A stretch of DNA of 64,000 nucleotides, taken from positions 434,001 to 498,000 of the forward strand of contig NZ_CANDOB010000002.1 in the NCBI RefSeq assembly GCF_947387515.1. The letters run 5' to 3'. Below the pieces are notes generated by a model. That model did not search any database. It saw only the letters and a list, made by a program, of their open reading frames with translations, and was not told the origin of the DNA. The DNA is from Alkalihalobacillus sp. CinArs1. GTDB lineage: Bacteria > Bacillota > Bacilli > Bacillales > Guptibacillaceae. Positions within the stretch are counted from its first letter, which is position 1, and the number at the start of each line of letters is the position of its first letter. Made by a program: the position numbers and the translations under genes. Below are positions 7,417 to 55,118 of this stretch, one piece after another.

Positions 7417-7441
7417 TTAAAAGGTACTGGAGGGAAACAGA

Positions 7442-36517: not shown

Positions 36518-36607
36518 GAAATATAATCCAAATTATGGTTGTTTATATTAGTTCGATGTATAATCGTATTTATATTTCGGAATATCGATATAAGGGGGAT
36601 GAGACAT

Positions 36608-38041
36608 TTGCCATTACCTACTCCAGAGGGAAGACAAAAAGAAGTATTATGTTTACCAGAAAAAGGCCATTATGTTGTTCTAGGGACAGCTGGGAGTGGT
36701 AAAACCACTTTAGCAATTCATCGAGCGGCCTATTTAGCAAAACGTACAAAATCGAAAGAAAAGGTTTTGTTAGTTACGTTTAATAAGTCTCTAGTAACCT
36801 ACTTAAATTCACTTGCAGAAAACAATTTATATAAAGTTGATGTTAGAAATTACCACTGGTTTGCCAGAGGGTATCTAGCTCATAGAGGTATGCTTAGCTG
36901 GGGGGATATAGTCCCATCTATGGATTACAATAAAGAAAATAAAAAGCTTACTTTTATTAAACAAGCAATTAATGAAGTTACTGAAGAACAAGGTGAAAAC
37001 TCTACACTAACAAGAGCTCCTGAAGTGTTCTATGAAGAAATATCGTGGATACAGAAAATAGGTCTTTCTTCGGTAGACGAATATATTGAAGCAGAGAGAA
37101 TCGGCCGTTCAGGTACAAGGGTTACTAGAGACAAGAGGAAATATTTCTTTGCAGTGTATGAAAGGTATCTTGATATTAGAGAGAGAAATGGATATCGTTA
37201 TGATTGGGACGATCTTGCTCATACAGTTAAAAGTGAACTAGACAATGATGAAAATGATAAAATGTACAAGCATATTATTATTGATGAGGGACAAGATCTT
37301 TCGCCGGTAATGCTTCAGTCTTTGGCATTAGCAGTGCCAAAAGATGGAAGTATAACTTTTTTTGGAGATGTGGCTCAACAAATATATGGGGGGCGTATAT
37401 CTTGGAGAGATGCTGGTCTTAATGTCACTCGAAGTGAGACTTGGAAATTTGATCAGAACTATAGAAATAGTACTGAAATAGCAGATTTAGCTATTGCTAT
37501 TTCTAAGCAACCGTTCTTTAAGCAAAGTACAGATTTAGTCACACCAAAAGCGCCTGTTGCTTCTGGTCCAAAACCTGTTTTAGCTGTATTTAATAATGAG
37601 GATAGCGAATTAAAGTGGGTTGTTCGGAATGCTGCTAAACTTGGTGAAAGACAGACTGTTTCTATTTTGATGAGAACTAGACAATCACTCAAAAAGCTTA
37701 GAAAATTATTAAGAGAACAACGTATAATTCCTCAAGAGTTAGATGGAGAATTAAAGAGATGGAATGGCAAACCAGGGATTTCTATTGGAACATACCACTC
37801 TGCAAAAGGACTGGAATTTGATGCTGTAATGATTCCGTATTGTAGTGCTGAAAGATTACCAGATGAAGATAAAATCACTGCATTAGAAGACAGAGATGAA
37901 GCATTAGGTGAAGAATCAAAACTTATTTATGTTGCAGTTACTCGAGCTAGGCGTTTGTTAGCTATGAGTTATACAGGTGAAGGGACTGAAATTATCCCTC
38001 AAGACGATTCTCTTTATTCTAAAAGAGAAATAGAAAAGTAG
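36608..38041 (+). CDS. UvrD-like superfamily 1 helicase of the ADP-ribosylation module
   Basis: 477 residues if started at TTG 36608, nine bases after AAGGGGG; ATG 36599 is in frame but touches the ribosome binding site. The product begins MPLPTPEGRQKEVL, a common start of this helicase group. Motifs: Walker A GTAGSGKT (26-33), Walker B IIIDEGQDLSP, motif III FFGDVAQQIYG, motif V TYHSAKGLEFDAVMIP and motif VI YVAVTRARRLL. The protein is compact, with no UvrD C-terminal extension or nuclease domain. It should unwind or translocate on DNA in the cytoplasm. The next two genes encode ADP-ribosyl transfer and removal enzymes in the same direction with an 11-base gap and then an overlap. Confidence 0.85.
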   Translation: MPLPTPEGRQKEVLCLPEKGHYVVLGTAGSGKTTLAIHRAAYLAKRTKSKEKVLLVTFNKSLVTYLNSLAENNLYKVDVRNYHWFARGYLAHRGMLSWGDIVPSMDYNKENKKLTFIKQAINEVTEEQGENSTLTRAPEVFYEEISWIQKIGLSSVDEYIEAERIGRSGTRVTRDKRKYFFAVYERYLDIRERNGYRYDWDDLAHTVKSELDNDENDKMYKHIIIDEGQDLSPVMLQSLALAVPKDGSITFFGDVAQQIYGGRISWRDAGLNVTRSETWKFDQNYRNSTEIADLAIAISKQPFFKQSTDLVTPKAPVASGPKPVLAVFNNEDSELKWVVRNAAKLGERQTVSILMRTRQSLKKLRKLLREQRIIPQELDGELKRWNGKPGISIGTYHSAKGLEFDAVMIPYCSAERLPDEDKITALEDRDEALGEESKLIYVAVTRARRLLAMSYTGEGTEIIPQDDSLYSKREIEK

Positions 38042-38051: not shown

Positions 38052-38738
38052 ATGGATGGATCTTTAAAAAGACAAGAATATCAAGGTAGAAATATTACTC
38101 GATTATGTCACATCACTCGTTCACAAAAAGCTATGCATATATTAAGTTCTGAAGATGGGATAAAGGCTGTTGATTTCCTGGATGAGAGTCTATATGATGC
38201 TAATGATGAAATACGGTTGGATGGTAAAAAAGATTTTATAAATTGCTCTATCGAATACCCGAACCATTGGTATTGGAAAAGAGTAAAGGGGAAGGATCCA
38301 CTATTTAAAGATTGGGTTATCTTATTAATCAATCCTGAGATACTAACATTAAAAACTACTAAGTTTTGCCCAGTTAATGCAGCTAAAGGCAGAGGGGCTT
38401 ATATAAATGACGGATATGTCGGTTTTAAAGAACTTTTTGATGAGAGGGTCCAAACTCGTTTTAGGTCTTCTCAGATGCTTCCTTGTTGCCCGACAGATGA
38501 TCAAGCGGAAGTATTGGTGTATAAAAATATATCAAGAAAAGATATTATAGGTGTAGTGGTACCAAATGAAGACCAAGGCGAAAGTGAAATTGTTAGATGG
38601 GAATTATTGAATATTCCTAAGTTTGATATATTTATTGCCCCTGACTTATTTAATGGTGAATGGAGTACAAAAGTTCGTAGAGGTATAAGGCCAGTAGAGT
38701 ATAAGTATCGAGGAGGTGAGTTACTTGGAAAAGAGTGA
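38052..38738 (+). CDS. DarT-like (DUF4433) ADP-ribosyltransferase
   Basis: 228 residues. ITRLCHITRSQKAMHILSSEDGIKA near the N-terminus is the NAD-binding start of the DarT family (a histidine in a HiT context), the middle FINCSIEYPNHWYWKRV aligns with the region after it, and CPTDDQAEVLVYKNISRKDIIGVVVP supplies the catalytic glutamate (E153) in the A/QAExLV motif. DarT enzymes use NAD+ to ADP-ribosylate thymidine (DarT2) or guanosine (DarT1) in single-stranded DNA. A DNA-directed toxin or regulator role is therefore likely, but target and base are not readable. It starts 11 bases after the helicase stop, and its 3' end overlaps the next gene. Confidence 0.75.
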   Translation: MDGSLKRQEYQGRNITRLCHITRSQKAMHILSSEDGIKAVDFLDESLYDANDEIRLDGKKDFINCSIEYPNHWYWKRVKGKDPLFKDWVILLINPEILTLKTTKFCPVNAAKGRGAYINDGYVGFKELFDERVQTRFRSSQMLPCCPTDDQAEVLVYKNISRKDIIGVVVPNEDQGESEIVRWELLNIPKFDIFIAPDLFNGEWSTKVRRGIRPVEYKYRGGELLGKE

Positions 38739-40389
38739 GAATAATAAGCTAGACAAATGGCTAGGAGCTTTGGTAGGGGCTGCTGTAGGTGACGCACTAG
38801 GATGGCCCAATGAACAAAATAGTAAAAATATTAGTAAGGCTCAACATAAAGAACAAGAGATGTTTCAAAAATGGGTAAGGCGTGATGGTGGCAGGTTCTG
38901 GTCGCATAATGAAGAGATACATCCAGGGGAATATAGTGACGATACACAGTTAATTATTGCAACTGCTCGAAGTTTAAGATATGGATCTAGTTGGAATAAG
39001 TTCTTTTCAAAGGTAGAGCTCCCAGCTTGGGTTTCATATGAAAGAGGTGGCGGAGGCGCTACTAAAAGAGCTGCTGAAACTTGGAGAAAAGGGAGCAATC
39101 CTTGGAATGTAGAAAAAGAAAGCAAGGCTGATGTTCAAAAGTATTTTAACGCTGGTGGAAATGGCGTAGCAATGCGTATCTTACCCCATGTTTTTAGGCG
39201 TGAAGGAACATGGTCTGAGGTTAAACACCAGGTTTTCTTAAATGGTATCTTTACACATGGACATCCAAGAGCATTAGTTGGTGCATTAGTTTATGCAGAT
39301 GCATTAACTTACCTCCAAAACATTGAGAAGACACTCGGATATGGGGAGCTTGTTGATTACCTGTTAGATAGGAAAGAGGAATGGGGTTCATTTCCAAATG
39401 TGCAAAAGCTTGATAAATGGATGGACGTTGCAAATGCAATATTTCAGAATAATTATATGAATTTGTGGAATGAAGTGACAGAAGAAGTTATTGAGCAATT
39501 GCGAATTGTTAAAGAAGGACTTGACGAAGGTGCTTTAGATATGGGAGATGAAGTCCTTGAAAAATTAGGTTGCTTTGATAGAAAGGTTAATGGATCAGGA
39601 ACAGTTACAGCGGTTGCTTCGATTTATCTTTCATCAAAATTTGCATCAAGCCCACGCTTAGCCATAATTGAAGCGGCTTATTTGAAAAATGCTGATACCG
39701 ATACATTAGCTTCAATGGTAGGTGGTCTGTTAGGTATTTTACATGGTTCAGAATTCCTTTCAGTTTCATGGCTCGACGTTCAGGATTATGACTACCTTAA
39801 GAGTCTCCTTAATCAAGAACCAAAGGATGATACAAAACTTGGTGGTCCATTGTTTGATTATTACAATCCTGAGATGAAAGCGAAAATTAAGCACTTACAA
39901 GTTGGGGACCAATTAAAAGCAGAACCTTTTGGGAAATTAACGCTAAAAGATAAGCGCCTAGATCAACCAAATGCGAAAAATGCAGTTGTTAATACATTGA
40001 AATTTGTTACTGAAGAAGGACAGCATATATTTGTTAAAACCTATGAAAAAGGATCTGTAGGAGATGCATATCTACCACAAGATAACAGAAACAATGGGCA
40101 GACTAATCCATTCAATACTAGGCAACAACAGCAAACACAGCCTTTAAGATATCCAAATAAACCAGTTCTAGACTCTAAAAAGATTAGAGGTTTATTAAAC
40201 ATTCTACCTGAAAAGTTAGAATTTGATTTATGTTTGCAATTTATTGCCGATGTTATGGATGAGATTGAACGAAATGGAGACGGTGGTATAAATCAGAGTG
40301 GTTTCAACTTTCTTAAGCAGCGATGGATTAAACATCAAATTGATATGAAAGACATAGAGAAAGCTGTGAAAGCTATCTTAAAATATTAA
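38725..40389 (+). CDS. ADP-ribosylglycohydrolase (DraG/ARH-like) with C-terminal extension
   Basis: 554 residues from TTG 38725, which follows AGGAGG by eight bases and overlaps the DarT-like gene by 14 bases; the GTG at 38716 is inside that ribosome binding site. The N-terminal 380 residues are the ADP-ribosylglycohydrolase fold: GALVGAAVGDALGWPNE, the metal ligands in EYSDDTQL (71-74), GGNGVAMRILPH and NADTDTLASMVGGLLG (D323, D325). These enzymes remove ADP-ribose from proteins or nucleic acids. The last about 170 residues form an unrecognised extension with a low-complexity QQQQ linker. It is the presumed antidote or recycling partner for the DarT-like enzyme, where a macrodomain DarG is usual. 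Confidence 0.82.
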   Translation: MEKSENNKLDKWLGALVGAAVGDALGWPNEQNSKNISKAQHKEQEMFQKWVRRDGGRFWSHNEEIHPGEYSDDTQLIIATARSLRYGSSWNKFFSKVELPAWVSYERGGGGATKRAAETWRKGSNPWNVEKESKADVQKYFNAGGNGVAMRILPHVFRREGTWSEVKHQVFLNGIFTHGHPRALVGALVYADALTYLQNIEKTLGYGELVDYLLDRKEEWGSFPNVQKLDKWMDVANAIFQNNYMNLWNEVTEEVIEQLRIVKEGLDEGALDMGDEVLEKLGCFDRKVNGSGTVTAVASIYLSSKFASSPRLAIIEAAYLKNADTDTLASMVGGLLGILHGSEFLSVSWLDVQDYDYLKSLLNQEPKDDTKLGGPLFDYYNPEMKAKIKHLQVGDQLKAEPFGKLTLKDKRLDQPNAKNAVVNTLKFVTEEGQHIFVKTYEKGSVGDAYLPQDNRNNGQTNPFNTRQQQQTQPLRYPNKPVLDSKKIRGLLNILPEKLEFDLCLQFIADVMDEIERNGDGGINQSGFNFLKQRWIKHQIDMKDIEKAVKAILKY

Positions 40390-42370: not shown

Positions 42371-43543
42371 ATGGTGAATAAAGAAAAGGAGGTAATTAAG
42401 GTTTATAAAAAGCAGTCAAGAGAACAGCAAGAAAACTACATTAAATTGTTGCAAGTGGTTGGTTCTCTATCAAACCTATTTAGTGAAAGTAAAACGCCAT
42501 ACTTATATTATCGCGCAGCAGAAAATATTTTCTGTAAGGCCTTAGGTGCAAATAATCTTGCGAGAGGGGACGTATCCTTTGATGCATTCAAAGGCAATGT
42601 AGGGGTTGGATTAAAAACATTCGTGCATGGAAACGGCAAGAAATTTGAGAAAATCGCAGAATTTAATAAAGATATAGACAAGTTCCGATGGTTAAACAAT
42701 GAGGAAACGGTAAGGAAAATTGCTGAGTTACGTAATGATCGAATAGCTGCTACTGAGCGTGCACACGGAACTGATGAAATGATCTACCACCTAGTCACAA
42801 GGAAAGAAGGTGAATTTGAGATACATGAAGAAGACATGCATTACATTGACTTTAAGACCTTAAAGTTAGATGAAAGGAAGACGACAGATAAAAATATCTT
42901 CTTTAGAGATAAACATTCAAATTATAAGTTTTATATTGCGAAAAGTACATTGTATAAACAGTTCTATTGTGATGACCCAGTTACTTCATTTGATGTGGAG
43001 ATTCTGAATAATCCTTTTGAATTTTTAATATCAGAAGAATCAAAGCAGTACATGGTTCACGATTTAGAAGAAGAGAAATACGAGCAAATCTTCTTACCTC
43101 TTTATTCAGCAAGAAGTGGTCAAGTGGAGGAAAAAAGTGGATTGAACCAGTGGAATGCGGGTGGCAGATCAAGGCATGTCGATGAGATTTATATCCCAAT
43201 CCCCTCATGGATTCATAAACAGTTTGAAGGCTTTTTCCCGTATGACAGACATACAGGAGAAAAAACGCCTTTTATATTAGTTCTACCTGGTGGTAAAGAA
43301 ATCGATGCTAGCATTTGCCAAAGCGGCGGTAAAGGATTTATGAGCAATCCAAATAAAGAATTAGGGTATTGGATACTTCGTACCATTTTACAAATACCAA
43401 TAGGTCAACTTGTAACGTATTCTGATTTAGATCGTGTAGGTATAGATTCAGTTCTTATTACAAAATACGATAGTTATTGTTTCAGTATCCGGTTTGCTTC
43501 AATAGGATCTTATTCTGAATTTGAAGGTGATTTTAAGGAATGA
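42371..43543 (+). CDS. Type II restriction endonuclease with NgoFVII/B3-like C-terminal domain
   Basis: 390 residues. Residues about 240-385 (IFLPLYSARSGQ, SGLNQWNAGGRSRHVDEIYI, PIPSWIHKQFEGFFPYDRHT, DLDRVGIDSVLITKYDSY) match the C-terminal DNA-recognition domain of NgoFVII/BfiI-type restriction enzymes (B3-like fold). Instead of their N-terminal PLD nuclease, the first about 230 residues carry a different domain with DVSFDAFKGNVGVGLKTF and KKFEKIAEFN, suggestive of a PD-(D/E)XK nuclease. It likely cuts the site protected by the m5C methyltransferase at 44029. AAAGGAGG lies inside the frame, after ATG 42371, and no good start follows it, so the start is uncertain. Confidence 0.7.
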   Translation: MVNKEKEVIKVYKKQSREQQENYIKLLQVVGSLSNLFSESKTPYLYYRAAENIFCKALGANNLARGDVSFDAFKGNVGVGLKTFVHGNGKKFEKIAEFNKDIDKFRWLNNEETVRKIAELRNDRIAATERAHGTDEMIYHLVTRKEGEFEIHEEDMHYIDFKTLKLDERKTTDKNIFFRDKHSNYKFYIAKSTLYKQFYCDDPVTSFDVEILNNPFEFLISEESKQYMVHDLEEEKYEQIFLPLYSARSGQVEEKSGLNQWNAGGRSRHVDEIYIPIPSWIHKQFEGFFPYDRHTGEKTPFILVLPGGKEIDASICQSGGKGFMSNPNKELGYWILRTILQIPIGQLVTYSDLDRVGIDSVLITKYDSYCFSIRFASIGSYSEFEGDFKE

Positions 43544-43589
43544 TAGGAACTAACCATGGGATACAAACTTAATGATATAAATATAAAAA

Positions 43590-43935
43590 GGACAATATAT
43601 TCCTAATGTAAATAAAGTTAATGCAGATTGTGATTACTTCTAACTTGTTAGGGTGAAGTATGGTACAGAAACTAGACTAAGAAAAAGAAAGATGCTTGGA
43701 AATAACATCTTCCAACCAAAACTCCTAGGGAAAGAACTGGCGGATTTTTTATATGAATTTAAAATTCTTTGTGTTCCTGTTAACTTTATAAGACAAGTAA
43801 TAACTAATTCGAAAATTGTTCTTAAAGGTAATTACTTCAGAACTATAGGACTAAAATCGAGGCTGTTAATTATTACATCCAATCTGGTGATATGTACGAA
43901 ATTCTTAACTTTATAGAGTACCATTTAGGAAATTA
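43590..43935 (+). pseudogene. Decayed copy of the 3' half of the 41154 nuclease gene
   Basis: Translated pieces align with the protein at 41154-41966: GQYIPNVNK...LVRVKYG against GKYIPNKEK...FVRVSYD; YEFKILCVPVNFIRQVITNS and KIVLKGNY against YNFDIHYIPMEYIKSAIKNE and MIVLKDNY; then, after a frameshift, NYYIQSGDMY against NYYIQCGDMI. Stops and frame changes show it is dead. It sits between the restriction gene and the methyltransferase. Confidence 0.75.
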
Positions 43936-43991
43936 AGCGTTGGGGGCAGCCAAAAATGTCGAAACATGATACAATAAAGTATGCTTAAATT

Positions 43992-44006
43992 AACCGAACG
44001 TCGGTT
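43992..44006. promoter_or_regulatory. Palindrome upstream of the methyltransferase gene
   Basis: AACCGA and TCGGTT are inverted around ACG, with the methyltransferase ribosome binding site (TGGAGGTG) 14 bases beyond. m5C methyltransferases often autoregulate by binding such sites; there is no separate controller gene. Confidence 0.4.
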
Positions 44007-44028
44007 CGTATGGAGGTGTACTTTTACA

Positions 44029-45162
44029 ATGACAATAGAGAATGATAATAAATATACTGTATCATCCCTTTTTGCAGGAGTGGGAGGGATTGATAAAGGG
44101 TTCGAGCAAGCAGGAGCAAGAATTATTTGGGCAAATGAAAATAATAAAAAGGCCTGCCACACTTATCGTACTAACTTTAAGGAACATCCTCTTTTGGACG
44201 ATGATGTGCGGGATGTGCATGAGTTTTTAATGCCAGATACAGATATTATTACTGCCGGTTGGCCATGTGTAGCATTTTCCGTAGCTGGTCAAAGACACGG
44301 CATGAAATATCAATGCCATGATTGTGGTCATGAACATATGGTAACCTACGATGAATATGTTCAGGGTGCGACTTGCCCTAACTGTAATGGTCACACTGAA
44401 GCTATAGACCCAAGGGGAACATTATTTTATGATGTGGTTCGTTTTATTCGTGCAAAAAGACCTAAAGCTTTCTTTTTAGAGAATGTGAAGAATTTACATG
44501 GTCACGATGAAGGAAGAACATTTAAAGTTATTAAACAGATGTTAGAAGATAGCGGGTATTATATAGATGACAGAATTTATAATACTATGACTCATGGAAA
44601 TGTTCCACAAAACCGTGAACGTGTGTTTATTGTTGGCTTTAAGAATAAAAAGGCATTTCAAAAGTTTATATGGCCTGACGAGCAAATTGAGTTAACTAAT
44701 ACAATAGATCATGTTTTAGATCGTCATGAAAAGCAAGATGAAAAATATTATTATCGCGAGAGTTCACAATACTATCCTATGCTACGTGAAGCCATTAAAC
44801 GAAGGGATACGGTTTACCAACTTCGCCGTGTTTATGTAAGAGAAAATCAAAGCAATGTTTGTCCAACCTTGACCGCTAATATGGGGGGGGGAGGCCATAA
44901 TGTCCCTTTAATTCTTGATGATTGGGGAATAAGGAAATTAACACCCAAGGAGACTTTCCGCTTCCAAGGTTTCCCTGTTGATCATGATTATTTTCTCCCA
45001 CAGGATATGGCTAACTCTCATTTATATATGCAGGCTGGTAATGCTGTAAGTGTTCCAGTTATTAAACGGATAGCAGAGCGACAACTAGAAGCACTTGAAA
45101 AAGTTTATAAGAAGCAAACAAAAAATAATACACAGAATAAAGAAGAATTGACAACAGCTTAA
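44029..45162 (+). CDS. DNA (cytosine-5) methyltransferase with zinc-ribbon insert
   Basis: 377 residues with m5C motifs: I SLFAGVGGIDKGFEQAG, IV AGWPCVAFSVAGQRHG (catalytic C80), VI FFLENVKNL (E151), VIII QNRERVFIVGF, IX PTLTANMGGGG and X QAGNAVSVPVI. Between IV and VI there is an insert with four cysteines in two CxxC pairs (C96, C99, C116, C119: YQCHDCGHEH and ATCPNCNGH), a zinc-ribbon that is not part of the minimal family. It transfers a methyl group from S-adenosylmethionine to cytosine and should protect the host from the adjacent restriction enzyme. ATG 44029 is chosen, after GGAGGTG; the frame opens earlier at 43981. Confidence 0.93.
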   Translation: MTIENDNKYTVSSLFAGVGGIDKGFEQAGARIIWANENNKKACHTYRTNFKEHPLLDDDVRDVHEFLMPDTDIITAGWPCVAFSVAGQRHGMKYQCHDCGHEHMVTYDEYVQGATCPNCNGHTEAIDPRGTLFYDVVRFIRAKRPKAFFLENVKNLHGHDEGRTFKVIKQMLEDSGYYIDDRIYNTMTHGNVPQNRERVFIVGFKNKKAFQKFIWPDEQIELTNTIDHVLDRHEKQDEKYYYRESSQYYPMLREAIKRRDTVYQLRRVYVRENQSNVCPTLTANMGGGGHNVPLILDDWGIRKLTPKETFRFQGFPVDHDYFLPQDMANSHLYMQAGNAVSVPVIKRIAERQLEALEKVYKKQTKNNTQNKEELTTA

Positions 45163-45190
45163 AAGACTCGTTTTGGCGGGTCTTTTATTT
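45160..45190 (+). terminator. Terminator of the methyltransferase gene
   Basis: AAAAGACTCG and CGGGTCTTTT form the stem (one G-T pair), followed by ATTTAATTT. It lies directly after the stop codon. Confidence 0.75.
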
Positions 45191-45238
45191 AATTTCTTTC
45201 CCTAGTTGCAATTTTAATATAAAAGAGGTTAAGTCATA

Positions 45239-45601
45239 ATGGATAAAGTTGATTTGAATGTTATGAAAGAAAGTTATGGTTACTTGTTTGAAGTTGAAAA
45301 TTACCTTAGAAAATTCATTGAGCATAATATGGAACTAAAATATGGCACTAATTGGGAGGTGATTGCTCATAAACTATACAATAATTCCCTGACAAATAAG
45401 CAGGTTAATGACCTTTATTATCATGAATTACTTGCTTACATTAGCTTGTTTAACTGTTTGAATATACTGATGCCACCAAAAGTCTTTGTCCAACTAAAAT
45501 CAATTAAAACGATTAGGAATAAAATAGCCCATAATTACTGGTTAGATAAAGGTGAAGTTATTACTCTTTACAATATATATCAAGATATAATTGGACGGTA
45601 A
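45239..45601 (+). CDS. HEPN-domain protein (Swt1-like), possible RNase
   Basis: 120 residues, all helical. The diagnostic motif is RNKIAHNYW near the C-terminus (R93 and H98, an R-x4-H of the HEPN superfamily), preceded by a long helical bundle with YLRKFIEHNMELKYG, typical of Swt1-like HEPN domains. HEPN proteins are often RNases acting as toxins or defence effectors, or non-catalytic partners of nucleotidyltransferases. There is no MNT antitoxin adjacent. It has AAGAGG upstream and lies between the methyltransferase and the GmrSD-like gene; a link to either is inference. Confidence 0.7.
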   Translation: MDKVDLNVMKESYGYLFEVENYLRKFIEHNMELKYGTNWEVIAHKLYNNSLTNKQVNDLYYHELLAYISLFNCLNILMPPKVFVQLKSIKTIRNKIAHNYWLDKGEVITLYNIYQDIIGR

Positions 45602-45900: not shown

Positions 45901-47565
45901 ATGGGCATTAAGAATTTTGGATTTGAAACTGTAGAAACCTACTTACAAAAAGGAGTTTTCTATATCCCTGATTATCAAAGAGAATACTCTTGGATTAAAG
46001 ATGATCAGGTGGAAGACTTTTGGACAGATCTTGATCATTCGGTAAAAGAAAATACAGATACACACTTTTTTGGTCAAATTGTTATTCATGATGACAAAAA
46101 TGAAAACAAAAAATATATTATTGACGGCCAACAGAGAACTACAACTTCTGTTATTTTTTTAGCAGTTCTTAGAGACTTATTTGAAGAAGTATACAAGGAT
46201 ACTGATAATTCAAGCTCTAGAAATAAGTTTGAAGATATAAGGTTGAAGTATATTGGTAGGTGGTCTGAAGAAGAGGATGAATTAAGGTTAACCTTAGGGA
46301 GAATCGATAAAGATTACTTCAGAGAAAATATTCAAATTAGTAGCCCGTTAGAATTAGAACCTTCACAAGATTCCCATAAACGTATAAAAGAAGCATATAA
46401 ATATTTTGAAACCAAAATGCGTGAAAAGATTTCAAATAGATCAAATGATCGAGATAAATATTCCATATTAGTTGAATATTATAATAAGTTCATTAACGGA
46501 TTTCAACTTATGTATGTAGAAACTGATGAAATTAATGAAGCATTCATTATATTTGAAACTTTAAATGCAAGAGGAAAGGATTTGGAAACTTCTGATCTGT
46601 TAAAGAATCATTTATTTCGTTCTTCGGGTAATTTAATTGATCAAGTGAAAAATAAATGGTTAAAAACAGTAGATAATTTAGATAACATAGATATTACAAA
46701 ATTCTTACGTCACTTTTGGAATTCTCAATACAAATTCACAAGAGAAAAAGACCTCTACAAAAAAATTAGGACTCATATTAATTCTCCAAAAAAATCAGAA
46801 GAATTTGTGGATAATTTATTTAAAATGTCTGATACTTACAAGGCATTAGTAAACCCTTCAGAAGAATATCATTTTACTAATTCTGAAACTCAGAAAGTAT
46901 TGACTAACTTAAAAACTTTAAAAGCAAGCTCATTTTACCCTATAATACTAGCAATGAAAAACAACGATTTTGTAGAAAATGATATTAGGTATGTATTAAA
47001 TCTAATAGAAACTTTTATAGTTAGAAATAATGTAGTCGCTGGGAAAGTTGCAAATAAATATGAAGTGCTTTTTGCTAAGATTGCACATAATATTTCTGAA
47101 AAAGAATTAATAACAATAGATCAAATATATAAAGAATTTAAGCATGAACTATTAAGTGATGAAGAGTTTGAAAATTTATTTGCATCTTTTAGTGTGAAAT
47201 CAAATACAGTTGCAAAATACATATTAAAAGAAATTAATGATTTTACTGAAAATGAGGTTAATGTAATTGGAGATGGAAGAGTTCATTTAGAGCACATAAT
47301 GCCTAAATCGTTAGGAGATTGGGTCATTGATGAGGAGACGCACAGAAAGTATTTAAATAGAATTGGAAACTTGACTTTACTAGGAAATGAGTATAACAGA
47401 AGCATACAAAACAAGGTATTCACAGTAAAAAAAGGTGTATATGAAAGATCAAATATTAATATTACTAAACCATTGAGCAAATATACTCAGTGGACTCTTA
47501 AAGAAATAGAAAATAGACAAATGGACTTATTTAAGATAGCTGTGGAAAGATGGAAATTGTGTTAA
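45901..47565 (+). CDS. GmrSD-like DUF262/DUF1524 protein, type IV restriction
   Basis: 554 residues starting at ATG 45901, after AAAAAGGAGAATG; the longer frame upstream to 45808 has no ribosome binding site. N-terminal DUF262 (ParB/Srx-like NTPase) with IPDYQREYSW and the signature YIIDGQQRTTTS (DGQQR 75-79); C-terminal DUF1524 with the HNH-type nuclease motif VHLEHIMPKSLG (about 460-471) and RIGNLTLLGNEYNRSIQNK. GmrSD and BrxU of this architecture cleave glucosylated or otherwise modified phage DNA in an NTP-dependent way. Predicted role: restriction of modified phage DNA. It is a single gene with its own hairpin terminator. Confidence 0.85.
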   Translation: MGIKNFGFETVETYLQKGVFYIPDYQREYSWIKDDQVEDFWTDLDHSVKENTDTHFFGQIVIHDDKNENKKYIIDGQQRTTTSVIFLAVLRDLFEEVYKDTDNSSSRNKFEDIRLKYIGRWSEEEDELRLTLGRIDKDYFRENIQISSPLELEPSQDSHKRIKEAYKYFETKMREKISNRSNDRDKYSILVEYYNKFINGFQLMYVETDEINEAFIIFETLNARGKDLETSDLLKNHLFRSSGNLIDQVKNKWLKTVDNLDNIDITKFLRHFWNSQYKFTREKDLYKKIRTHINSPKKSEEFVDNLFKMSDTYKALVNPSEEYHFTNSETQKVLTNLKTLKASSFYPIILAMKNNDFVENDIRYVLNLIETFIVRNNVVAGKVANKYEVLFAKIAHNISEKELITIDQIYKEFKHELLSDEEFENLFASFSVKSNTVAKYILKEINDFTENEVNVIGDGRVHLEHIMPKSLGDWVIDEETHRKYLNRIGNLTLLGNEYNRSIQNKVFTVKKGVYERSNINITKPLSKYTQWTLKEIENRQMDLFKIAVERWKLC

Positions 47566-48091: not shown

Positions 48092-50020
48092 ATGTTACAT
48101 ACACTTAGAAATAACAAGTGGAAATTTTCGCCTATACCTAACATAGAAGAATCAAATTTCAATAAAACCTTAGAACGCTTTTACAACATGGGAGTAGTAG
48201 GTTTAGTTAGAGAGAATATACAAAACTCCCTTGATGGACGTTTAGTTAACTACGATGGTCCAGTTGTAGTTAAAGTTAAAACAGGATCTATCAAAAAGAA
48301 GTACATACCGGGTATTGATGATGTGGAAGAGCGTATTATGAGCTTAGAAGGCCGAAATAGTTATACGAATGAAACCATCAATCATATGAAGAATAAAATA
48401 AATCAGGAAAAAGTTAGATATATTTCTTTTGAAGACATCAACACAAGAGGATTGACTGGAGCACGAAATGGTCAAAGTAATTCCAAGAAAGACACTTGGG
48501 GCATTTATGCCTACAATAAAGGAGTTCACTTTGAAGAAGAGAATAGCCAAATTGAAGTTTCAAGAGGTGGCTCTCACGGAGTGGGGAAAATTGCTTCAAA
48601 CGCAGCGTCAGATTTGCATGTGATGTACTTTGCAAACTGTGATGAAAATGGGGATCAGCACCTTGGTGGGACTGTTCAATTAATTGAACATTTGTATAAG
48701 GGTCAGGCCTATAGATCATCTGGGTATTTTACAGATATCGAAGTCTATGATGACAACAAGTCGAAATTTTACCCCTATGAAAATACTTTTCATGATGTGT
48801 TTAAGAAAGATACAAGAGGATTGAAAATCATCATTCCATATTTTCGTAGTGGATATGATGATGAAACAGCAATTATAAAAAGTATTTGTGACAGCTTCTT
48901 CGTTTCAATCCTAAACAACAAGCTTGAAGTTCATATAAATGAAAAAGAAGTAAATAAAGAAACCATACTAGACTATGTTAAAGATCAAGACTATTACATT
49001 CAGGAAATTGCAGATGCCAAGAAGGAATTCACACCACTATACCTAGATACATATTTGGATGCTCCTTCTCAAGGAATTACAGTATCAAACGGATCAGAAG
49101 AATTTCAATTCCAACTCTACTTTAGATTCGATGAGCGGATACCAAAAGGAAGAGTTGCTATTGTAAGAACTATTGGAATGAAAATTGAGGATTTTAAAGT
49201 CCAAGGTAGTGCTACAAAACCATTTAATGCTGTGCTTATTGGTGGACCAAAAGAAGACGCTTACTTGAAGTCGCTAGAAAATGAATCCCATACAAAGCTA
49301 TCAAAGGATCATTTTAATGATGCATCATTAAAGAGACGTGCTACAAGGTTCATTAATAATTTATCGAAAGAAATCTCCAAAGTAATTGAAAATGCAATTA
49401 AAGAAAACAATCCTACAGACGGAATAATGGATACACAAGACCTTCTCTATGTAGTAGAGACACAGTTCAAAAAAGACTTAGAAAAATCAATTGGAACTGT
49501 TAAAGTCAACCAGGGTAAATCGTTAGTAAAATCTACAACAGCCCCATCTAAGAAGGAAAAGCGGAAAGAAAAGGATAAGGAAGGTAGAGAAGAGAGTAAG
49601 GAGAAAAAGAAACCTAAAAAACGCGATCCTTTAAAATGGCAGAAAAGTGAGGAAGAGAAGGAGAATAATGAGGAAGGAAAAGAACGATATAGTGCACACC
49701 CTGAGATGGTAGAGAGAATTATCTTGACTGAAAAAGAAATGATTAAATTTGACTTTACTAAGAGCGAAAAATTAGGGGATGCGAAGAACTGCGATATCGC
49801 TTTATCACTCATTGATGGAATGGGTGTAGAGTACAAAGATGAATTTAAAATTCAGAATAACTATATAAATATTATTGATGTTAATTCAGGGGGAAGCTGC
49901 TCCTACAGAAAAAATGTAATTAAGGGTGTTCAAATTAATAATGGAGTAGCTCAGCTTAATTTAAAATTGAGGGACACCTTCAACAGATCATTAAAATTTG
50001 TTTATTATGTGGAGGTGTAG
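48092..50020 (+). CDS. GHKL-type ATPase, first gene of an unrecognised three-gene system
   Basis: 642 residues. The N-terminal 330 residues carry a GHKL/MutL-like ATPase core: N-box GLVRENIQNSLDG (E41, N45, D48), the D-x-G-like ISFEDINTRGLTG (113-123) and the lid GGSHGVGK (159-166). A low-complexity lysine/glutamate linker follows (about 480-560, many KEKKK and EEKE runs), then a C-terminal domain of about 110 residues that I do not recognise. GAGGTGG precedes the ATG by nine bases. GHKL ATPases in defence loci act as ATP-driven clamps or switches (MutL-like, Mza or Z1 loci). Here they are joined by two unfamiliar proteins rather than a Z1, AIPR or methyltransferase gene. Confidence 0.7.
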   Translation: MLHTLRNNKWKFSPIPNIEESNFNKTLERFYNMGVVGLVRENIQNSLDGRLVNYDGPVVVKVKTGSIKKKYIPGIDDVEERIMSLEGRNSYTNETINHMKNKINQEKVRYISFEDINTRGLTGARNGQSNSKKDTWGIYAYNKGVHFEEENSQIEVSRGGSHGVGKIASNAASDLHVMYFANCDENGDQHLGGTVQLIEHLYKGQAYRSSGYFTDIEVYDDNKSKFYPYENTFHDVFKKDTRGLKIIIPYFRSGYDDETAIIKSICDSFFVSILNNKLEVHINEKEVNKETILDYVKDQDYYIQEIADAKKEFTPLYLDTYLDAPSQGITVSNGSEEFQFQLYFRFDERIPKGRVAIVRTIGMKIEDFKVQGSATKPFNAVLIGGPKEDAYLKSLENESHTKLSKDHFNDASLKRRATRFINNLSKEISKVIENAIKENNPTDGIMDTQDLLYVVETQFKKDLEKSIGTVKVNQGKSLVKSTTAPSKKEKRKEKDKEGREESKEKKKPKKRDPLKWQKSEEEKENNEEGKERYSAHPEMVERIILTEKEMIKFDFTKSEKLGDAKNCDIALSLIDGMGVEYKDEFKIQNNYINIIDVNSGGSCSYRKNVIKGVQINNGVAQLNLKLRDTFNRSLKFVYYVEV

Positions 50021-50023
50021 AAG

Positions 50024-50872
50024 GTGATTTATAGAAAAGACGCAAATTTCCCTTACCCTGTTCTTGCTAATACTTCATACAGCTATGCAACCAACTCTTT
50101 TGATTTGGATGTAAATGTTATAGAGAATGCAGAGTACTACCACTTTGACTTTGAATATATGATAGATTCAGAGTTTATTAGAGAACAGATTAAAAGAAGG
50201 AATGCTCAGTTAATCTTAATCATTCAATCTAAAGACAATAAATTTGTTAAATTAAATCCAGACCAAAAAACTGTGAAGATCCACAAGTCTCGAGTGTCCT
50301 TAAATAAACGGACTTCTATTCAATTGCACATCCAAGCTCTGGAAGATATAAGTTTCGAGAACAATGAAGACTTGAGCGAATTCTACCTGCAATTCAAAGA
50401 AGAAATAATTGTTCCTAAGTTCTCGTTATTAGGATATTCGAGTGTTATTGTTTTCGATGGTAGTATTACAAAGCCTTTTGATCTGTTTGAGAAAAAAGTC
50501 AATGAGAACTTGAAATCAGATATAAAAGTTGAATTGGGTAACGAAACAATTATCATTCACTATAAAAATCCTGAATATCAATTTAACAACTTACCAAAAA
50601 GCAATGTACTAAATAATCCATATATTTATACAGGTTTGTCAAAAGCTCTTCAGACTTTTATTACTAATAATAGTAACGATGGTGATGTTGATATTCAAGA
50701 GATGCAGGAACCTGAAGGATCTTTGGATTTTAAATTATATAACCTAATGAAGAGTAAAAAAGTTACAGAGTTAAATATGGAAAATATTGATGAAGTGATC
50801 TATATGATTTCTGATCGTATTATAGAAAAGTTTACTACTGCTTTGGGGGGACTAGTAACGGATGGAAGTTAG
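50024..50872 (+). CDS. Unrecognised protein, second gene of the GHKL operon
   Basis: 282 residues starting at GTG 50024, eight bases after GGAGG that is embedded in the end of the ATPase gene, so the two are translationally coupled. The first part, starting MIYRKDANFPYPVLANTSYS, is rich in beta strands with many aromatic and Asn/Asp residues; a middle segment is KISRVSLNKRTSIQLHI-like; the last 50 residues are helical (YMISDRIIEKFTTALGGL). No transmembrane segment or catalytic signature. Its stop overlaps the next start by 11 bases. I cannot give a function; a DNA-binding or scaffolding partner of the ATPase is possible. Confidence 0.6.
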   Translation: MIYRKDANFPYPVLANTSYSYATNSFDLDVNVIENAEYYHFDFEYMIDSEFIREQIKRRNAQLILIIQSKDNKFVKLNPDQKTVKIHKSRVSLNKRTSIQLHIQALEDISFENNEDLSEFYLQFKEEIIVPKFSLLGYSSVIVFDGSITKPFDLFEKKVNENLKSDIKVELGNETIIIHYKNPEYQFNNLPKSNVLNNPYIYTGLSKALQTFITNNSNDGDVDIQEMQEPEGSLDFKLYNLMKSKKVTELNMENIDEVIYMISDRIIEKFTTALGGLVTDGS

Positions 50873-52049
50873 ACTACTAGCTAATGGGTATAAAAACTCA
50901 GAGACGTTGTATCAGGATTTTTTAGATGGGAAATTAATTGAAAAAGACGAATATTTCTCAAATGACTTTGTCTTTGTTAAAGAAGCCCCTGACTTCCCAT
51001 TCTATATGGGTAAAGGGAGTGAAGAAGAAAAAAAGCAAGGTTTTCTTAAAGCTTTTAAAGTCATATCTCAATCATATTTAGATATGGATAGAGCACATCT
51101 TCTAGATGAGACGTTTTGGCACTCGTTACTGCTAACACAGAAAAGAGATTTTATTTTGAATAGCTATTCAGATGTTCAAAATGGTAAGAATGTATTTAAC
51201 AATATTGTGCTAAAGAAATTTGATTGGGAGAATTATATCTATAAAATCATCTTAGGAGCGCAATATGTTGTTGATAATATCCAGGATGATAACGAACGTA
51301 ACAGATACTATGGATTAATTGCTGAAAACCTTGATCTTTACAATTACATTATTAAATATGAAATTTTCAGGAATGACAAGTTTCTAATTAATATATTGAG
51401 TATTATAGATGAACTAGACCTATCAAAAGTACTGAAGGCAAAAATCAAAGGACGAGAAGACCTAGGTGACGATGAACGTGTAGGAAGAAGAGTAATATTT
51501 GAATTTAACAAAAGCTATCCAGTAATTATGTCGCCAATGCTCGAAAAGGATGAGCTTAAGAAGCTTTTTGTAGAGTACTTAAGTTATTATCATGAAGTAT
51601 CAGAGCAAGAGGTTTCGTTTAAAGGTGTAGACGGAGAAAGCTATAAAAATGCAGAATCCGTTCAAGTAGATAAGTATGATCCTTATGAAGTAGAGAATAA
51701 TTACTATGAACCAGTAGGATTATCTGGAAAAGACAATCAAGCCAATGCATTTGTAAATGAAGACTTTGTATCCGTTAGTAGTGTTACAAGCACTCAAGTT
51801 AAAGAACCTAGTAAACCAAGTGTAGAAAGTGACACTGAAGAAAAAGATCTTTTGATTGAATATTTGCAAAAACATGATTTGGAGTACATAGATAAGCGTC
51901 ACAAAGGCGGATCTATTTGGGTAATAGGGGATAAGCGGATTGGCTCAATCTTGAAACCTTTGGAAAACTTAGGTATGTACTTTAGGTATAAGGCAGTTGG
52001 GGGGAGAACTTCCAGGTTTAGGTCAGCATGGTTTTGGTATGAGAAGTGA
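50862..52049 (+). CDS. Unrecognised protein, third gene of the GHKL operon
   Basis: 395 residues from ATG 50862, overlapping the previous gene by 11 bases. The first about 240 residues are helical and charged; a spacer of low complexity (about 255-330) follows; the C-terminal about 65 residues (LLIEYLQKHDLEYIDKRHKGG then SIWVIGDKRIGS and FRSAWFWYEK) form a compact basic domain with conserved-looking tryptophans. I associate similar K-GG-x-LWV modules with tails of defence-related proteins and suspect nucleic-acid binding, but this is not established here. No nuclease motif is obvious, so the effector of this system may be hidden in gene 2 or 3. Confidence 0.55.
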   Translation: MEVRLLANGYKNSETLYQDFLDGKLIEKDEYFSNDFVFVKEAPDFPFYMGKGSEEEKKQGFLKAFKVISQSYLDMDRAHLLDETFWHSLLLTQKRDFILNSYSDVQNGKNVFNNIVLKKFDWENYIYKIILGAQYVVDNIQDDNERNRYYGLIAENLDLYNYIIKYEIFRNDKFLINILSIIDELDLSKVLKAKIKGREDLGDDERVGRRVIFEFNKSYPVIMSPMLEKDELKKLFVEYLSYYHEVSEQEVSFKGVDGESYKNAESVQVDKYDPYEVENNYYEPVGLSGKDNQANAFVNEDFVSVSSVTSTQVKEPSKPSVESDTEEKDLLIEYLQKHDLEYIDKRHKGGSIWVIGDKRIGSILKPLENLGMYFRYKAVGGRTSRFRSAWFWYEK

Positions 52050-52123
52050 AAATAATTTCACATTTCATTATAGGTTTCTTTTAAACTTACTAATTTTTAA
52101 ATGATATAAAAAAGGAGAATTAT

Positions 52124-52450
52124 ATGCCAACATACAACAAACTCATTAGAGATAATATTCCACAAATTATTAAAGCCACAGGGAAAGACTTCAATACTAA
52201 AAATCTTAATGATGTTGAATACAAAGAAGAACTCCAAACAAAGCTCAAAGAAGAACTGGAAGAATATCTAAAAGCAACAAAAGACAACGAGTCTATAGAA
52301 GAACTAGCGGATATGTTAGAAATAATCTATTCTTTAACTACTATTCACCATTCTTCAATTGAGAAACTAGAAAAGGTAAGGAAAGAAAAGAAAGTTAAAC
52401 GCGGAGGATTCGAAAAAAAAATTTATTTGATTGATGTGGAAGATGAGTAA
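52124..52450 (+). CDS. MazG-like nucleotide pyrophosphohydrolase
   Basis: 108 residues starting MPTYNKLIRDNIPQII, the typical start of the phosphoribosyl-ATP pyrophosphohydrolase-like branch. The metal-binding EExxE...ExxD pattern is in LKEELEEYLKA and SIEELADMLEIIYSL. The all-alpha NTP-PPase superfamily hydrolyses nucleoside triphosphates or (p)ppGpp-type molecules. AAAAAGGAG precedes the ATG, and its stop overlaps the next helicase start by eight bases. In defence loci such proteins may deplete nucleotides or clear modified NTPs; here it may modulate the helicase-nuclease (inference). Confidence 0.75.
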   Translation: MPTYNKLIRDNIPQIIKATGKDFNTKNLNDVEYKEELQTKLKEELEEYLKATKDNESIEELADMLEIIYSLTTIHHSSIEKLEKVRKEKKVKRGGFEKKIYLIDVEDE

Positions 52451-54866
52451 GGTTCAACTAGTATCTGAAAGACTGTACGACTACCTTGTTCCAGAGATAG
52501 ATCGCTCTGATTCTATTTATATTCTAACTTCATTTGTAATGCGTTCAGGAGTTGATTTACTATATCCCTATTTAAAAGAAGCACTTAAAAGAGGAGCAAG
52601 TGTTAAATTGTGCGCTGGTGATTACCTTTTTGTTACGCAGCCGAAAGCATTAAACTTGTTACTAGAACTTGAAGGAATTGAAGTCCGCTTGTTCCAAAGT
52701 AATGGCCGATCTTTTCATCCAAAAGCTTATCTGTTCGGACAGGAGAAAGGGAATGGAGCATTCTTTGTAGGTTCATCAAATCTATCAAAATCAGCACTTA
52801 CTGGTGGTGTAGAGTGGAACCTCTATGTTACTGAGAGTAGTGCACCATCGACATATGAAGAAGCAGAAGATCAGTTTCTACATACCTTCTACCATGAAAA
52901 CACCATTCCTCTAAATGATGAAACTTTAAAGTCTTATTATAATAGGTACGAACAGTACCATTTAAACCATCCTGAGCTTCATCAAACTTGGACTGATTTA
53001 GAAGAAATCGATATGACAATAGGTGTTCCCTCTTCACAAGATAAGATAAAAGAACGCGGTGAGGTATATGAGGTGAATACACAAACTGAGTTAACACCTA
53101 GACCAGCTCAAAGAGAAGCTCTCGAAGCGCTAGAATCAACTCTTGAAGAGGATTATACAAGCGCAATGGTGGTATTACCAACTGGAATAGGGAAGACATA
53201 TCTAGCTGCTTTTTTTGCTCGTTCGTTTAAAAGGGTTCTTTTTATTGCCCATAGAGAAGAGATTTTGTATCAAGCGAAGCGTTCCTTCCATCATGTTATT
53301 CACAATCGTTCTACAGGTATTTACAATGGTAAGGAAAAAGAGATGGCTGATATGATGTTTGCTTCTGTTTTCACTATCGGACAGGAAAAGAATTTACATC
53401 GCTTTTCTCCTGATGAATTTGATCTTATTGTGGTGGATGAATTTCACCACGCAGCTGCACCTTCTTATCAAGGGATAATAGATTACTTTAATCCTAAGTT
53501 CCTATTAGGTATAACCGCAACCCCTGACAGGATGGACAACAAGGACGTCTATGCACTGTGTAATGGAAATGTGGCTTATAACATGCATTTTATAGAAGCA
53601 ATTGAGCAAGACTGGCTGACTCCATTTCGTTACTATGGTGTTTATGATGAGACAGACTATTCGAGCATTACCTGGTTGGGGAATAAATACGATAAAGAAG
53701 AGTTGTTACAAGTACAACTTAAGGAAGAATTAGCCCAAAAAATCCTGGAAGCATGGCTTCAATATAAGCAAACAAGGTCGATTGGATTTTGTTCTTCAAT
53801 CAGACAAGCCGTGTTTCTAGCTAATTATTTCAATCAGAATGGCTATAAAGCTATTAGCTTACATTCCAAATCGGATTATAATAGAGCAGAAGCGATCCAA
53901 AGTTTATCTTCTGGTGAAATAGACATAATTTTTACGGTAGATCTATTTAATGAAGGTGTGGATATTCCCCCTGTAGATACTTTGCTGTTCGCAAGACCAA
54001 CTGAATCATTGACCGTCTTTACCCAGCAGGTGGGTAGAGGGCTGAGGTTATTTGAAGGTAAATCTTATTGTAATATTATCGACCTGATTGGAAACTATCG
54101 TAATGCTGATATTAAACTCTCTTTGTTTGATACGGCCCCGGCTAAAGATACTAGAACAAATAATGTTGAACCTGTTGTCCCAGCTAATTGCGAGTTAAAC
54201 CTGGACTTAAAAGTTATTGATTTACTGCAGGAGCTTAATCGCAAAAAGCAGCCACGTAAGGAGAAGTTGTATGATGCTTATTATAATGTAAAGCTAGAAC
54301 TTGGGGGGCGTCCAAGTTATACAGAGCTCCACCGGAAAGGCTCTGAAGAAAGTAAAGGATATAAGCAGGAGTTTAAGTCATACATAGGTTTTCTTGATTG
54401 GGCAGACGAACTGGATGAGAACGAAAAGGAAGTATTTAATAAGCATAGTAAGTGGATTACAGAGGTTGAGCGAACAAACATGACCAAGAGTTATAAGATG
54501 GTCGTTCTTAAGTATATGTTAAGTAGAGGGGTAGAACATTGGTTAGATTCTGTTGCGCCAACCGAAGTAGCTCCCTTTTTCCACCAATACCTTACTGAGG
54601 TGGACTACCGAAAATTAAAAGATTTCTCAGATAAAACAACGAAAAAATTATGGGTATATGATGAAAAGAAAGTAAGTAATTTGATTGCAATCATGCCGAT
54701 GACTAAGTGGAGTGGTAGTTCCAAGGGGTTAGTTTTATTCGAAGATAATGTATTTCAATTTAATGTTGAAGTTGCTAATGAAGAAGAAAACAACTATTTA
54801 TACAACTGGACAAAGGAAATATGTGAGTATCGATTGCGTGAGCACTTTGAGAAAAAAGCTAAATAA
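52443..54866 (+). CDS. PLD-nuclease/SF2 helicase fusion, probable restriction protein
   Basis: 807 residues if started at ATG 52443, which overlaps the MazG-like stop; ATG 52434 and TTG 52431 are in frame. The N-terminal about 170 residues are a phospholipase-D-type nuclease domain with one H-x-K motif (SFHPKAYLFGQ, H92 and K94) followed by VGSSNLSKSAL. A superfamily 2 helicase follows: Walker A VLPTGIGKTY, Walker B VVDEFHHAAA, GITATPDRMDN and QQVGRGLRLFEG. The C-terminal 200 residues are of unknown type. SauUSI and related type IV or DUF3427 proteins share this plan and cleave modified or foreign DNA; the present protein is shorter and lacks a recognisable SRA domain. Confidence 0.78.
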   Translation: MSKVQLVSERLYDYLVPEIDRSDSIYILTSFVMRSGVDLLYPYLKEALKRGASVKLCAGDYLFVTQPKALNLLLELEGIEVRLFQSNGRSFHPKAYLFGQEKGNGAFFVGSSNLSKSALTGGVEWNLYVTESSAPSTYEEAEDQFLHTFYHENTIPLNDETLKSYYNRYEQYHLNHPELHQTWTDLEEIDMTIGVPSSQDKIKERGEVYEVNTQTELTPRPAQREALEALESTLEEDYTSAMVVLPTGIGKTYLAAFFARSFKRVLFIAHREEILYQAKRSFHHVIHNRSTGIYNGKEKEMADMMFASVFTIGQEKNLHRFSPDEFDLIVVDEFHHAAAPSYQGIIDYFNPKFLLGITATPDRMDNKDVYALCNGNVAYNMHFIEAIEQDWLTPFRYYGVYDETDYSSITWLGNKYDKEELLQVQLKEELAQKILEAWLQYKQTRSIGFCSSIRQAVFLANYFNQNGYKAISLHSKSDYNRAEAIQSLSSGEIDIIFTVDLFNEGVDIPPVDTLLFARPTESLTVFTQQVGRGLRLFEGKSYCNIIDLIGNYRNADIKLSLFDTAPAKDTRTNNVEPVVPANCELNLDLKVIDLLQELNRKKQPRKEKLYDAYYNVKLELGGRPSYTELHRKGSEESKGYKQEFKSYIGFLDWADELDENEKEVFNKHSKWITEVERTNMTKSYKMVVLKYMLSRGVEHWLDSVAPTEVAPFFHQYLTEVDYRKLKDFSDKTTKKLWVYDEKKVSNLIAIMPMTKWSGSSKGLVLFEDNVFQFNVEVANEEENNYLYNWTKEICEYRLREHFEKKAK

Positions 54867-54944: not shown

Positions 54945-55055
54945 ATGTATTCTTTCTTAGTAAAATCAGCTAAAGCTGGATTTGTTGTTAATGTCATTTT
55001 AGGTACAGTAGTAGGAGCTCTAGCATTTTTTGATTTGATTCATATATCTTTCTAA
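54945..55055 (+). CDS. Short hydrophobic peptide, 36 aa
   Basis: ATG 54945 opens 36 codons to TAA 55053-55055: MYSFLVKSAKAGFVVNVILG followed by TVVGALAFFDLIHISF. It has a single hydrophobic helix and a basic N-terminus. AGAAGGTAGG lies upstream. A terminator follows at 55091. The size and character fit a type I toxin-like or stress membrane peptide, but no antisense RNA gene is evident and the call is weak. It is the last candidate gene of the island. Confidence 0.4.
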   Translation: MYSFLVKSAKAGFVVNVILGTVVGALAFFDLIHISF

Positions 55056-55090
55056 TTCTTTAAAAAGTAATGCTATTAGTTACCTAATAA

Positions 55091-55118
55091 AAACGCTCAG
55101 GCATCTGAGCGTTTTTTA
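55091..55118 (+). terminator. Terminator at island right edge
   Basis: AACGCTCAG and CTGAGCGTT form a nine-base stem around GCAT, then TTTTTATT. Almost the same element (AACGCTCA...TGAGCGTTTTTTATTATGA) stands at 62957-62985 before the intact metal-dependent hydrolase, so the terminator was duplicated with the gene. Confidence 0.9.

Follow-up and report, generated by a model that had tools for sequence, protein, structure and literature searches.

A MazG-like pyrophosphohydrolase gene overlapping a SauUSI-like nuclease-helicase gene in Alkalihalobacillus sp. CinArs1: a putative two-part defence system

The window considered here is a stretch of 64,000 nucleotides from Alkalihalobacillus sp. 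CinArs1 (contig NZ_CANDOB010000002.1, positions 434,001 to 498,000). At 52124–54866 it carries two overlapping genes, the first encoding a small MazG-like protein and the second a large protein with a phospholipase D-like (PLD) nuclease domain and a superfamily 2 (SF2) helicase motor, referred to below as the helicase. Comparison of this pair with its relatives points to a putative two-part defence system. The features of the pair, all on the plus strand, are as follows.

52112–52117, plus strand: Shine-Dalgarno sequence AAGGAG of the MazG-like gene, read from the sequence; pairs with the anti-Shine-Dalgarno (anti-SD) at −8.9 kcal/mol and is the strong ribosome site of the pair
52124–52450, plus strand: predicted MazG-like all-alpha nucleoside triphosphate (NTP) pyrophosphohydrolase, 108 amino acids (aa), ATG start (PF01503, invariant acids, AlphaFold2 (AF2) model)
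52443–52450, plus strand: 8-nt overlap ATGAGTAA of the MazG stop and the helicase start, read from the sequence
52443–54866, plus strand: PLD nuclease-SF2 motor-coupler protein, 807 aa, from the ATG at 52443 to a stop ending at 54866 (Pfam, motifs, alignments)
52494–52877, plus strand: PLD-like nuclease domain, residues 18–145, with H92-P-K94 and GSSN at 110–113 (PF13091, 2.9e-8)
53091–53531, plus strand: first RecA-like domain of the SF2 motor, with Walker A GIGKT and DEFH (PF04851, 1.2e-37; motifs)
53739–54047, plus strand: second RecA-like domain of the SF2 motor, with QQVGRGLR (PF00271, 4.8e-13; motifs)
54120–54863, plus strand: coupler-like C-terminal region, residues ~560–807 (hhalign against SauUSI-like paralogues, E 1e-13)

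An earlier sequence-only reading of the window had noted that the MazG-like stop and the helicase start overlap by eight bases, and this overlap is present as listed. The mechanical open reading frame (ORF) call for the helicase opens at an in-frame TTG (52431), ahead of the ATG at 52443. This ATG has a weaker Shine-Dalgarno sequence than the MazG start, pairing with the anti-SD at −3.3 kcal/mol. Across 34 loci, picked without a check of the helicase frame, mean anti-SD pairing was −8.4 kcal/mol at MazG starts, −4.8 at helicase starts and −2.3 at random ATGs, and the MazG start had the stronger Shine-Dalgarno in 32 of the 34. Translational coupling is favoured by these comparisons, yet the helicase start is not bare. 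Two further elements were seen by eye 3' of the helicase: a 36-aa hydrophobic ORF (54945–55055) and, after it, a hairpin resembling an intrinsic terminator at ~55088–55117 (ACGCTCAGGCATCTGAGCGT followed by T's).

The conservation of the pair was examined in relatives of the helicase. A search of 397 genomes of the window's order gave a match at E ≤ 1e-60 in 197, and the matches listed include at least ~90 rows of the short form at ≥50% identity, the remaining rows being partial hits or longer paralogues. The main set comprised 60 loci from 60 genomes, namely 55 of the ~90 listed short-form rows (the window's own included) and 5 from the wider class or phylum; it is a non-random choice of the better-scoring full-length matches and holds some near-copies (the MazG proteins of L035, L037 and L038 are identical). 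MazG lies directly upstream of the helicase on the same strand in 51 of the 60 loci, the window included, and eight of these also have a HIT gene; in five loci HIT stands alone upstream. As for the remaining four, MazG stands 0.9 kb further up in L061, a GmrSD-like gene separates the helicase from an upstream HIT gene in L072, and L092 and L093 have neither upstream. (In L061, from genome G110, the ORF separating MazG from the helicase is 291 aa long.) In the top 30 loci MazG is present in 29, the exception being G042 (L021, the same as L046), which has HIT. When the overlap was counted over the 51 MazG-preceded loci with a check of the helicase frame, it was 8 nt in 32 and 1 or 4 nt in eight; the 11 remaining loci mostly have the two genes ≤25 nt apart, and in L043 and L070 no helicase start was found within 40 nt of MazG. 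This geometry is kept between proteins at only 50–60% identity. The MazG and helicase distances also correlate across 50 pairs (r 0.76; 0 of 2000 permutations), a correlation to which species descent could contribute.

In more distant relatives the order of the genes is reversed. The distant set took 17 of the 28 phylum-search rows at 38–44% helicase identity, giving 15 additional loci together with L092 and L093; 16 of the 17 are testable, L359 being cut off by the end of its contig. In 15 of the 16 a partner gene overlaps the helicase stop or starts within ~20 nt past it. The 3' partner is MazG in four loci (L352–L355), HIT in four (L356, L357, L360, L364), HIT followed by MazG in two (L358, L361) and a class I S-adenosylmethionine (SAM) methyltransferase in five (L362, where the start is unsure, L365, L366, L092, L093). 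The three methyltransferase partners scanned match Methyltransf_11/25 and, more weakly, TehB, and a methyltransferase gene also lies directly 5' of the Pseudoalteromonas (annotated) and Aeromonas relatives of the helicase. Because the MazG-helicase association is found in both gene orders, it is judged to be functional, and this occurrence in both orders is the best evidence for it. The functional pairing proposed in the sequence-only reading is thus well supported by the conservation check, but MazG as an obligatory partner is not, since HIT or a SAM methyltransferase replaces it elsewhere and its frame is broken in L043. Comparison of the loci shows the two genes as a predicted single co-translated module, the small partner of which is usually MazG and appears interchangeable with HIT or a methyltransferase.

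The 108-aa protein matches PF01503 just above the cut-off (21.7 against 21.3 bits). MazG-like NTP pyrophosphohydrolases carry the acidic metal-binding motif EExxE ... ExxD, found here as E43, E44, E47, E60 and D63. These residues and K40 are invariant both in 23 of the 51 helicase-coupled sequences, which were aligned, and in a set of 53 comprising the window protein and 52 viral sequences. Because the acids are invariant, MazG catalysis seems to be under selection. The AF2 model (predicted local distance difference test, pLDDT, 93.8) was compared by VIA-align, the best rows being iMazG and PRA-PH at Z 8.1 (iMazG root-mean-square deviation 2.2 over 68 aligned residues). Eight of the top 11 rows are named MazG, PRA-PH or pyrophosphatase; the same list holds a ferritin domain at Z 7.4, and for helical bundles a Z under ~13 is soft. 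Foldseek returned no match to the model at E ≤ 0.001 (best E 0.34), and a single-sequence search of solved structures gave nothing significant (best 0.28). With a MazG profile the best solved structure was 7bgm (0.0038), and iMazG 2q73 scored 0.075. PADLOC shows only a weak DpdC match for this partner. The protein thus has in common with the MazG, iMazG and DCTPP1 enzymes a helical fold and an invariant acidic motif, while differing in that its single-sequence matches to structures are not significant; the model agrees with an all-alpha NTP pyrophosphatase fold, and the protein is classed as MazG-like.

The helicase matches PLDc_2 (PF13091), ResIII (PF04851) and Helicase_C (PF00271). The single PLD H-x-K and the SF2 motifs described earlier were confirmed: there is one HxK (H92/K94) with GSSN at 110–113, and the motor motifs GIGKT, DEFH and QQVGRGLR occur in all 60 rows, the window's among them. 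H92, K94 and G110–N113 are invariant in 18 aligned sequences, with the HxK aligned to FHAK of SauUSI. The best solved relative, matched across nuclease and motor, is 7clg (E 4e-80, residues 8–654; 'Putative helicase' in the table), which we take to be SauUSI, in keeping with its 953 residues and the H119/K121 of the alignment. No alignment of the helicase to 7clg extends past residue 654, and Pfam finds neither a DUF3427 nor an SRA domain in the window helicase at E 0.1. SauUSI has its coupler at residues 618–805 and an SRA-fold target recognition domain (TRD) at 806–953 (PMC7913695).

The end of the window protein was located against the longer paralogues. A tail profile of the short family (58 sequences) aligned with that of the long paralogues (35 sequences) at hhalign E 1e-13, over short-family columns 1–265 of 282 and paralogue columns 1–249 of 415, so that the last ~166 paralogue columns, the TRD, are without counterpart in the short family. 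The first half seems to account for most of the score; aligned by itself, the last part keeps the register but falls short of significance (E 0.073). DUF3427 was found in three of the four long relatives scanned. Because the tail stops where the SRA/DUF3427 region of the paralogues begins and the window protein has no DUF3427, the window protein appears to be a SauUSI chassis without the known SRA/DUF3427 reader, a conclusion supported at the level of sequence. The sequence-only reading had reported no recognisable modification reader, unlike SauUSI; this is borne out and can be put more sharply, in that the protein appears to end just where that region would start. SauUSI, in contrast, shares the PLD nuclease with one HxK per protomer, the SF2 motor and the coupler but continues into the SRA-fold TRD, whereas the 807-aa window protein ends at the coupler and overlaps a MazG gene; SauUSI acts as a single polypeptide (PMC3874153).

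A diverged reader may exist in the last 150 residues. The single-sequence model of the tail (pLDDT 44) is too poor for a fold test, searches of the tail against Pfam (with a 27-member profile) and the PDB gave nothing convincing, and none of 20 candidate stretches held a viral relative of it. Homology of the tail (its 'SKSYKM' region) to parts of MazG-linked HNH nucleases was considered and rejected (profile E 0.16 and 0.084; empty in global mode). An S24-like domain is absent from the window protein and was found in only one of the four long relatives scanned, Pseudoalteromonas L143, whose protein (4917–7868) has a C-terminal S24 (LexA-like) peptidase domain after a tail that resembles the window's by eye. 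In PADLOC (2023) the best models for the helicase are mREase_IV (E 2e-91, over the first 558 residues). Other systems were rejected: Mokosh, since MkoB matches only residues 24–121 (E 8e-4, 25 families shown) and lies below mREase_IV; Dnd/Pbe and Dpd, for which there are partial motor or PLD matches only, again below mREase_IV; and the NCBIfam models, among them RadD and EcoAI, none of which came near its cut-off. The genome_contigs scan yielded a single distant helicase.

The SauUSI/DUF3427-type paralogues were used as a control, with 40 loci drawn from 54 paralogue rows among the matches listed (about five are truncated or split genes; L259 and L261 overlap L190 and L185 of the MazG set described below). 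Of the 40, 30 have a MutT/NudG-like NUDIX gene within 250 bp and 34 have one within 1.8 kb, leaving six with none; MazG lies within 1.8 kb in five of the 40, and the geometry of the short pair occurs in none. In the two NUDIX proteins scanned the top NCBIfam models are MutT- and NudG-type, below all cut-offs. The paralogues thus have the same nuclease, motor and coupler and likewise have a gene for a small nucleotide hydrolase as neighbour in 30 of 40 loci, the difference being that their partner is a NUDIX protein, often on the opposite strand, and the window's an overlapping MazG. In four loci of one genus (L035–L038) a tandem of a long PLD-helicase, a NUDIX gene and a MazG-short helicase pair was observed; the long PLD-helicases of L035 and L036, the two scanned, contain DUF3427.

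The relatives of the MazG gene were surveyed in the same way. A search of 150 genomes of the order found one in 97 (106 rows, ~39 touching a short helicase and ~66 not), and 40 of the ~66 rows, mostly top-ranked, were taken as the unlinked set, with the MazG ORF obtained in 38. G051 was left out, as its MazG is flanked by a HIT gene and a decayed PLD-helicase (L158). Eight of the 38 have, at a distance of up to 1.3 kb, an HNH gene of the type that restricts phosphorothioated (PT) DNA, present in L192 and L194 as fragments only; the one representative scanned reaches 389 bits, the cut-off being 180 (NF045808). Another six are within 400 bp of a different HNH nuclease (HNH_4). A tree built from 94 MazG proteins has low resolution, with 46 of 89 inner branches open, and the helicase-linked label is clustered on it without forming one clade (22 changes against a shuffled mean of 31.2). 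Four helicase-linked genes of the same genus group with the window MazG (support 82), and the sister of this clade is two PT-HNH-linked proteins (support 93); because of this placement the partner nuclease of MazG appears to have been exchanged. Some PT-DNA-binding HNH restriction endonucleases (NF045808) thus have a neighbouring MazG of the same subfamily as the window's, although these nucleases are HNH enzymes, unrelated to the window nuclease and without a motor. Ten HNH nucleases of ~330 aa with a 'STYKF'-like N-terminus were also noted (L187, L188, L195, L200, L205, L206, L209, L213, L234, L257), seven of them within 400 bp of MazG; the one scanned matched HNH_4, and its NCBIfam matches, to IscB/Cas9 HNH models, were only weak.

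The favoured interpretation, to which a probability of about 0.4 is given, is that the module makes a motor nuclease together with an enzyme for the removal of non-canonical nucleotides. The motor nuclease would attack invading DNA with an abnormal feature, either a non-canonical base or a replication or end structure, which either the chassis itself or a separate factor would recognise. The MazG partner would clear the matching non-canonical (deoxy)nucleoside triphosphate, or (d)NTP, from the pool, keeping the mark out of host DNA so that the nuclease spares the host, and may also rob the phage of a modified precursor. Through termination-reinitiation coupling, nuclease levels would follow those of the cleaner. 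Earlier papers report that 5-methyl-dCTP is hydrolysed in both hydrolase families, by the MazG-family DCTPP1 and by the NUDIX enzymes Orf135/NudG (PMC10742078; PMC3744803), that a mycobacterial MazG removes 5-OH-dCTP (PMC3855555), and that SauUSI cuts DNA containing 5-methylcytosine (5mC) and 5-hydroxymethylcytosine (PMC7913695, PMC3874153).

Several observations weigh against pool cleaning in this form. The window encodes a C5-cytosine methylase, so that a nuclease hitting 5mC in any context would hit its own host. HIT enzymes are best known for acting on nucleoside phosphoramidates and ApnA, not dNTPs, and with HIT and methyltransferase partners the idea of pool cleaning must be stretched to fit all. 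The MazG frame of L043 is broken, closing after 47 codons, and the adjoining helicase frame is open; L363 has no partner at the helicase 3' end, the sole such case of the 16 testable distant loci; and 24 of the 38 unlinked MazG genes are near neither type of HNH gene. Because helicase starts out-pair random ATGs with the anti-SD, independent initiation of the helicase is possible to some extent. SauUSI needs no partner for its activity (PMC3874153).

The partner could instead act as a sensor or gate, binding the nuclease 1:1 and holding it inactive until an infection-specific nucleotide is met, or passing on a product, whereupon the released nuclease would degrade DNA indiscriminately. The lack of the known reader domain in a family with so tight a partner is in keeping with this, as are the overlapping genes, which favour matched synthesis, the occurrence of both gene orders, and the membership of each partner type in a nucleotide- or SAM-binding family. 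The reading is nevertheless held to be unlikely, given that the helicase ORF stays open beside the broken MazG frame of L043 (though that genome has a second MazG-like gene, G114:C8, at 42% identity), that the invariant acids suggest selected catalysis, and that the SauUSI/DUF3427-type paralogues keep a NUDIX neighbour despite having a reader. Equally doubtful is the proposal that restriction here reads the nucleotide pool and not the DNA, the chassis having lost its base-reading domain and the co-translated MazG, HIT or methyltransferase sensing or processing an infection-specific nucleotide and so licensing or restraining an otherwise indiscriminate nuclease.

A role in genome maintenance, with MazG removing damaged precursors and the PLD-helicase processing DNA that took them up as a housecleaning and repair couple, seems quite unlikely. 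MazG, HIT and NUDIX are classical housecleaning folds, the motor resembles the repair helicases RadD and XPB (below NCBIfam cut-offs) and the pair is spread across many families, but it is patchy in the window's genus (the short form in 5 of 14 genomes among the matches listed), the window copy is found in a variable region that also holds GmrSD and restriction-modification (R-M)-like genes, and its best-matching characterised relative is a restriction enzyme. An abortive-type effector, in which MazG, boosted on infection, would deplete (d)NTPs while the PLD-helicase cuts DNA, halting replication both ways, has in its favour the intact MazG catalytic site and the listing of MazG as a predicted, unvalidated defence domain (PMC13092281); it is decidedly improbable, as ~66 of the 106 MazG rows in the order lie away from a short helicase and are seemingly tolerated, and as HIT and methyltransferases would not deplete dNTPs. 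That defence-island genes merely drift together, leaving the link without functional meaning, is the least credible explanation and barely tenable: islands do mix genes and MazG also occurs alone, but the geometry persists at 50–60% identity, is rebuilt in reverse in distant relatives and occurs with MazG in 0 of 40 paralogue loci, and the upstream MazG (51 of 60) and the reversed-order loci already make this reading unlikely.

The closest prior literature among the matches listed is a 2020 figure legend that shows MutT homologues next to SauUSI homologues in Streptococcus (PMC7641849) and the DefensePredictor listing of MazG as a predicted, unvalidated defence domain (PMC13092281). No paper on the MazG-PLD-helicase pair or the missing reader was found among the matches listed, in a search of titles and abstract openings with subscription journals and preprints outside its range. 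The comparisons describe a widespread family that appears to keep nuclease and motor, to drop the known reader and nearly always to keep a swappable small partner enzyme, providing a testable case of nucleotide-pool chemistry and DNA restriction run as one system. Two loose ends are thereby joined: the unvalidated MazG-type defence proteins (PMC13092281) and the stand-alone Type IV nuclease SauUSI (PMC3874153).

Around the window copy are restriction genes and others of defence type; this stretch is not shared by the sibling genome G020. In G020 a match to the right flank (55.7–57.0 kb of the window, 91%) and a short match to the left side (40.5–40.9 kb, 74–77%) are separated by ~34 kb, and nothing in the window stretch between them matches at the DNA level. 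Among the G020 ORFs between the flanks, searches found a relative only for the HEPN gene of the window; some of the others look like a Dnd phosphorothioation cluster. The neighbouring genes are listed below.

36539–38041: UvrD-type helicase, near the upstream edge of the stretch
38716–40389: ADP-ribosylglycohydrolase-domain protein, near the upstream edge of the stretch
42371–43543: NgoFVII C-terminal B3-like domain protein, part of an R-M-like block at 42371–45601
43981–45162: C5-cytosine methylase (PF00145)
45239–45601: small HEPN gene (Swt1-like, below cut-off)
45901–47565: single-chain GmrSD-type restriction enzyme (PADLOC HEC-06, 6e-185)
48092–52049: gene trio, PADLOC PDC-M33A (8e-57), PDC-M33B (4e-11) and a third gene

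The trio was considered as part of the MazG-helicase module and rejected, the family of its first gene being present in only 5 of the 60 loci. In its third gene the middle resembles DUF6339, just short of the cut-off, and the C-terminal part resembles ZorC (1e-6); this gene may be a missing M33 component. GmrSD-like neighbours, labelled by eye, are found at some of the other loci too.

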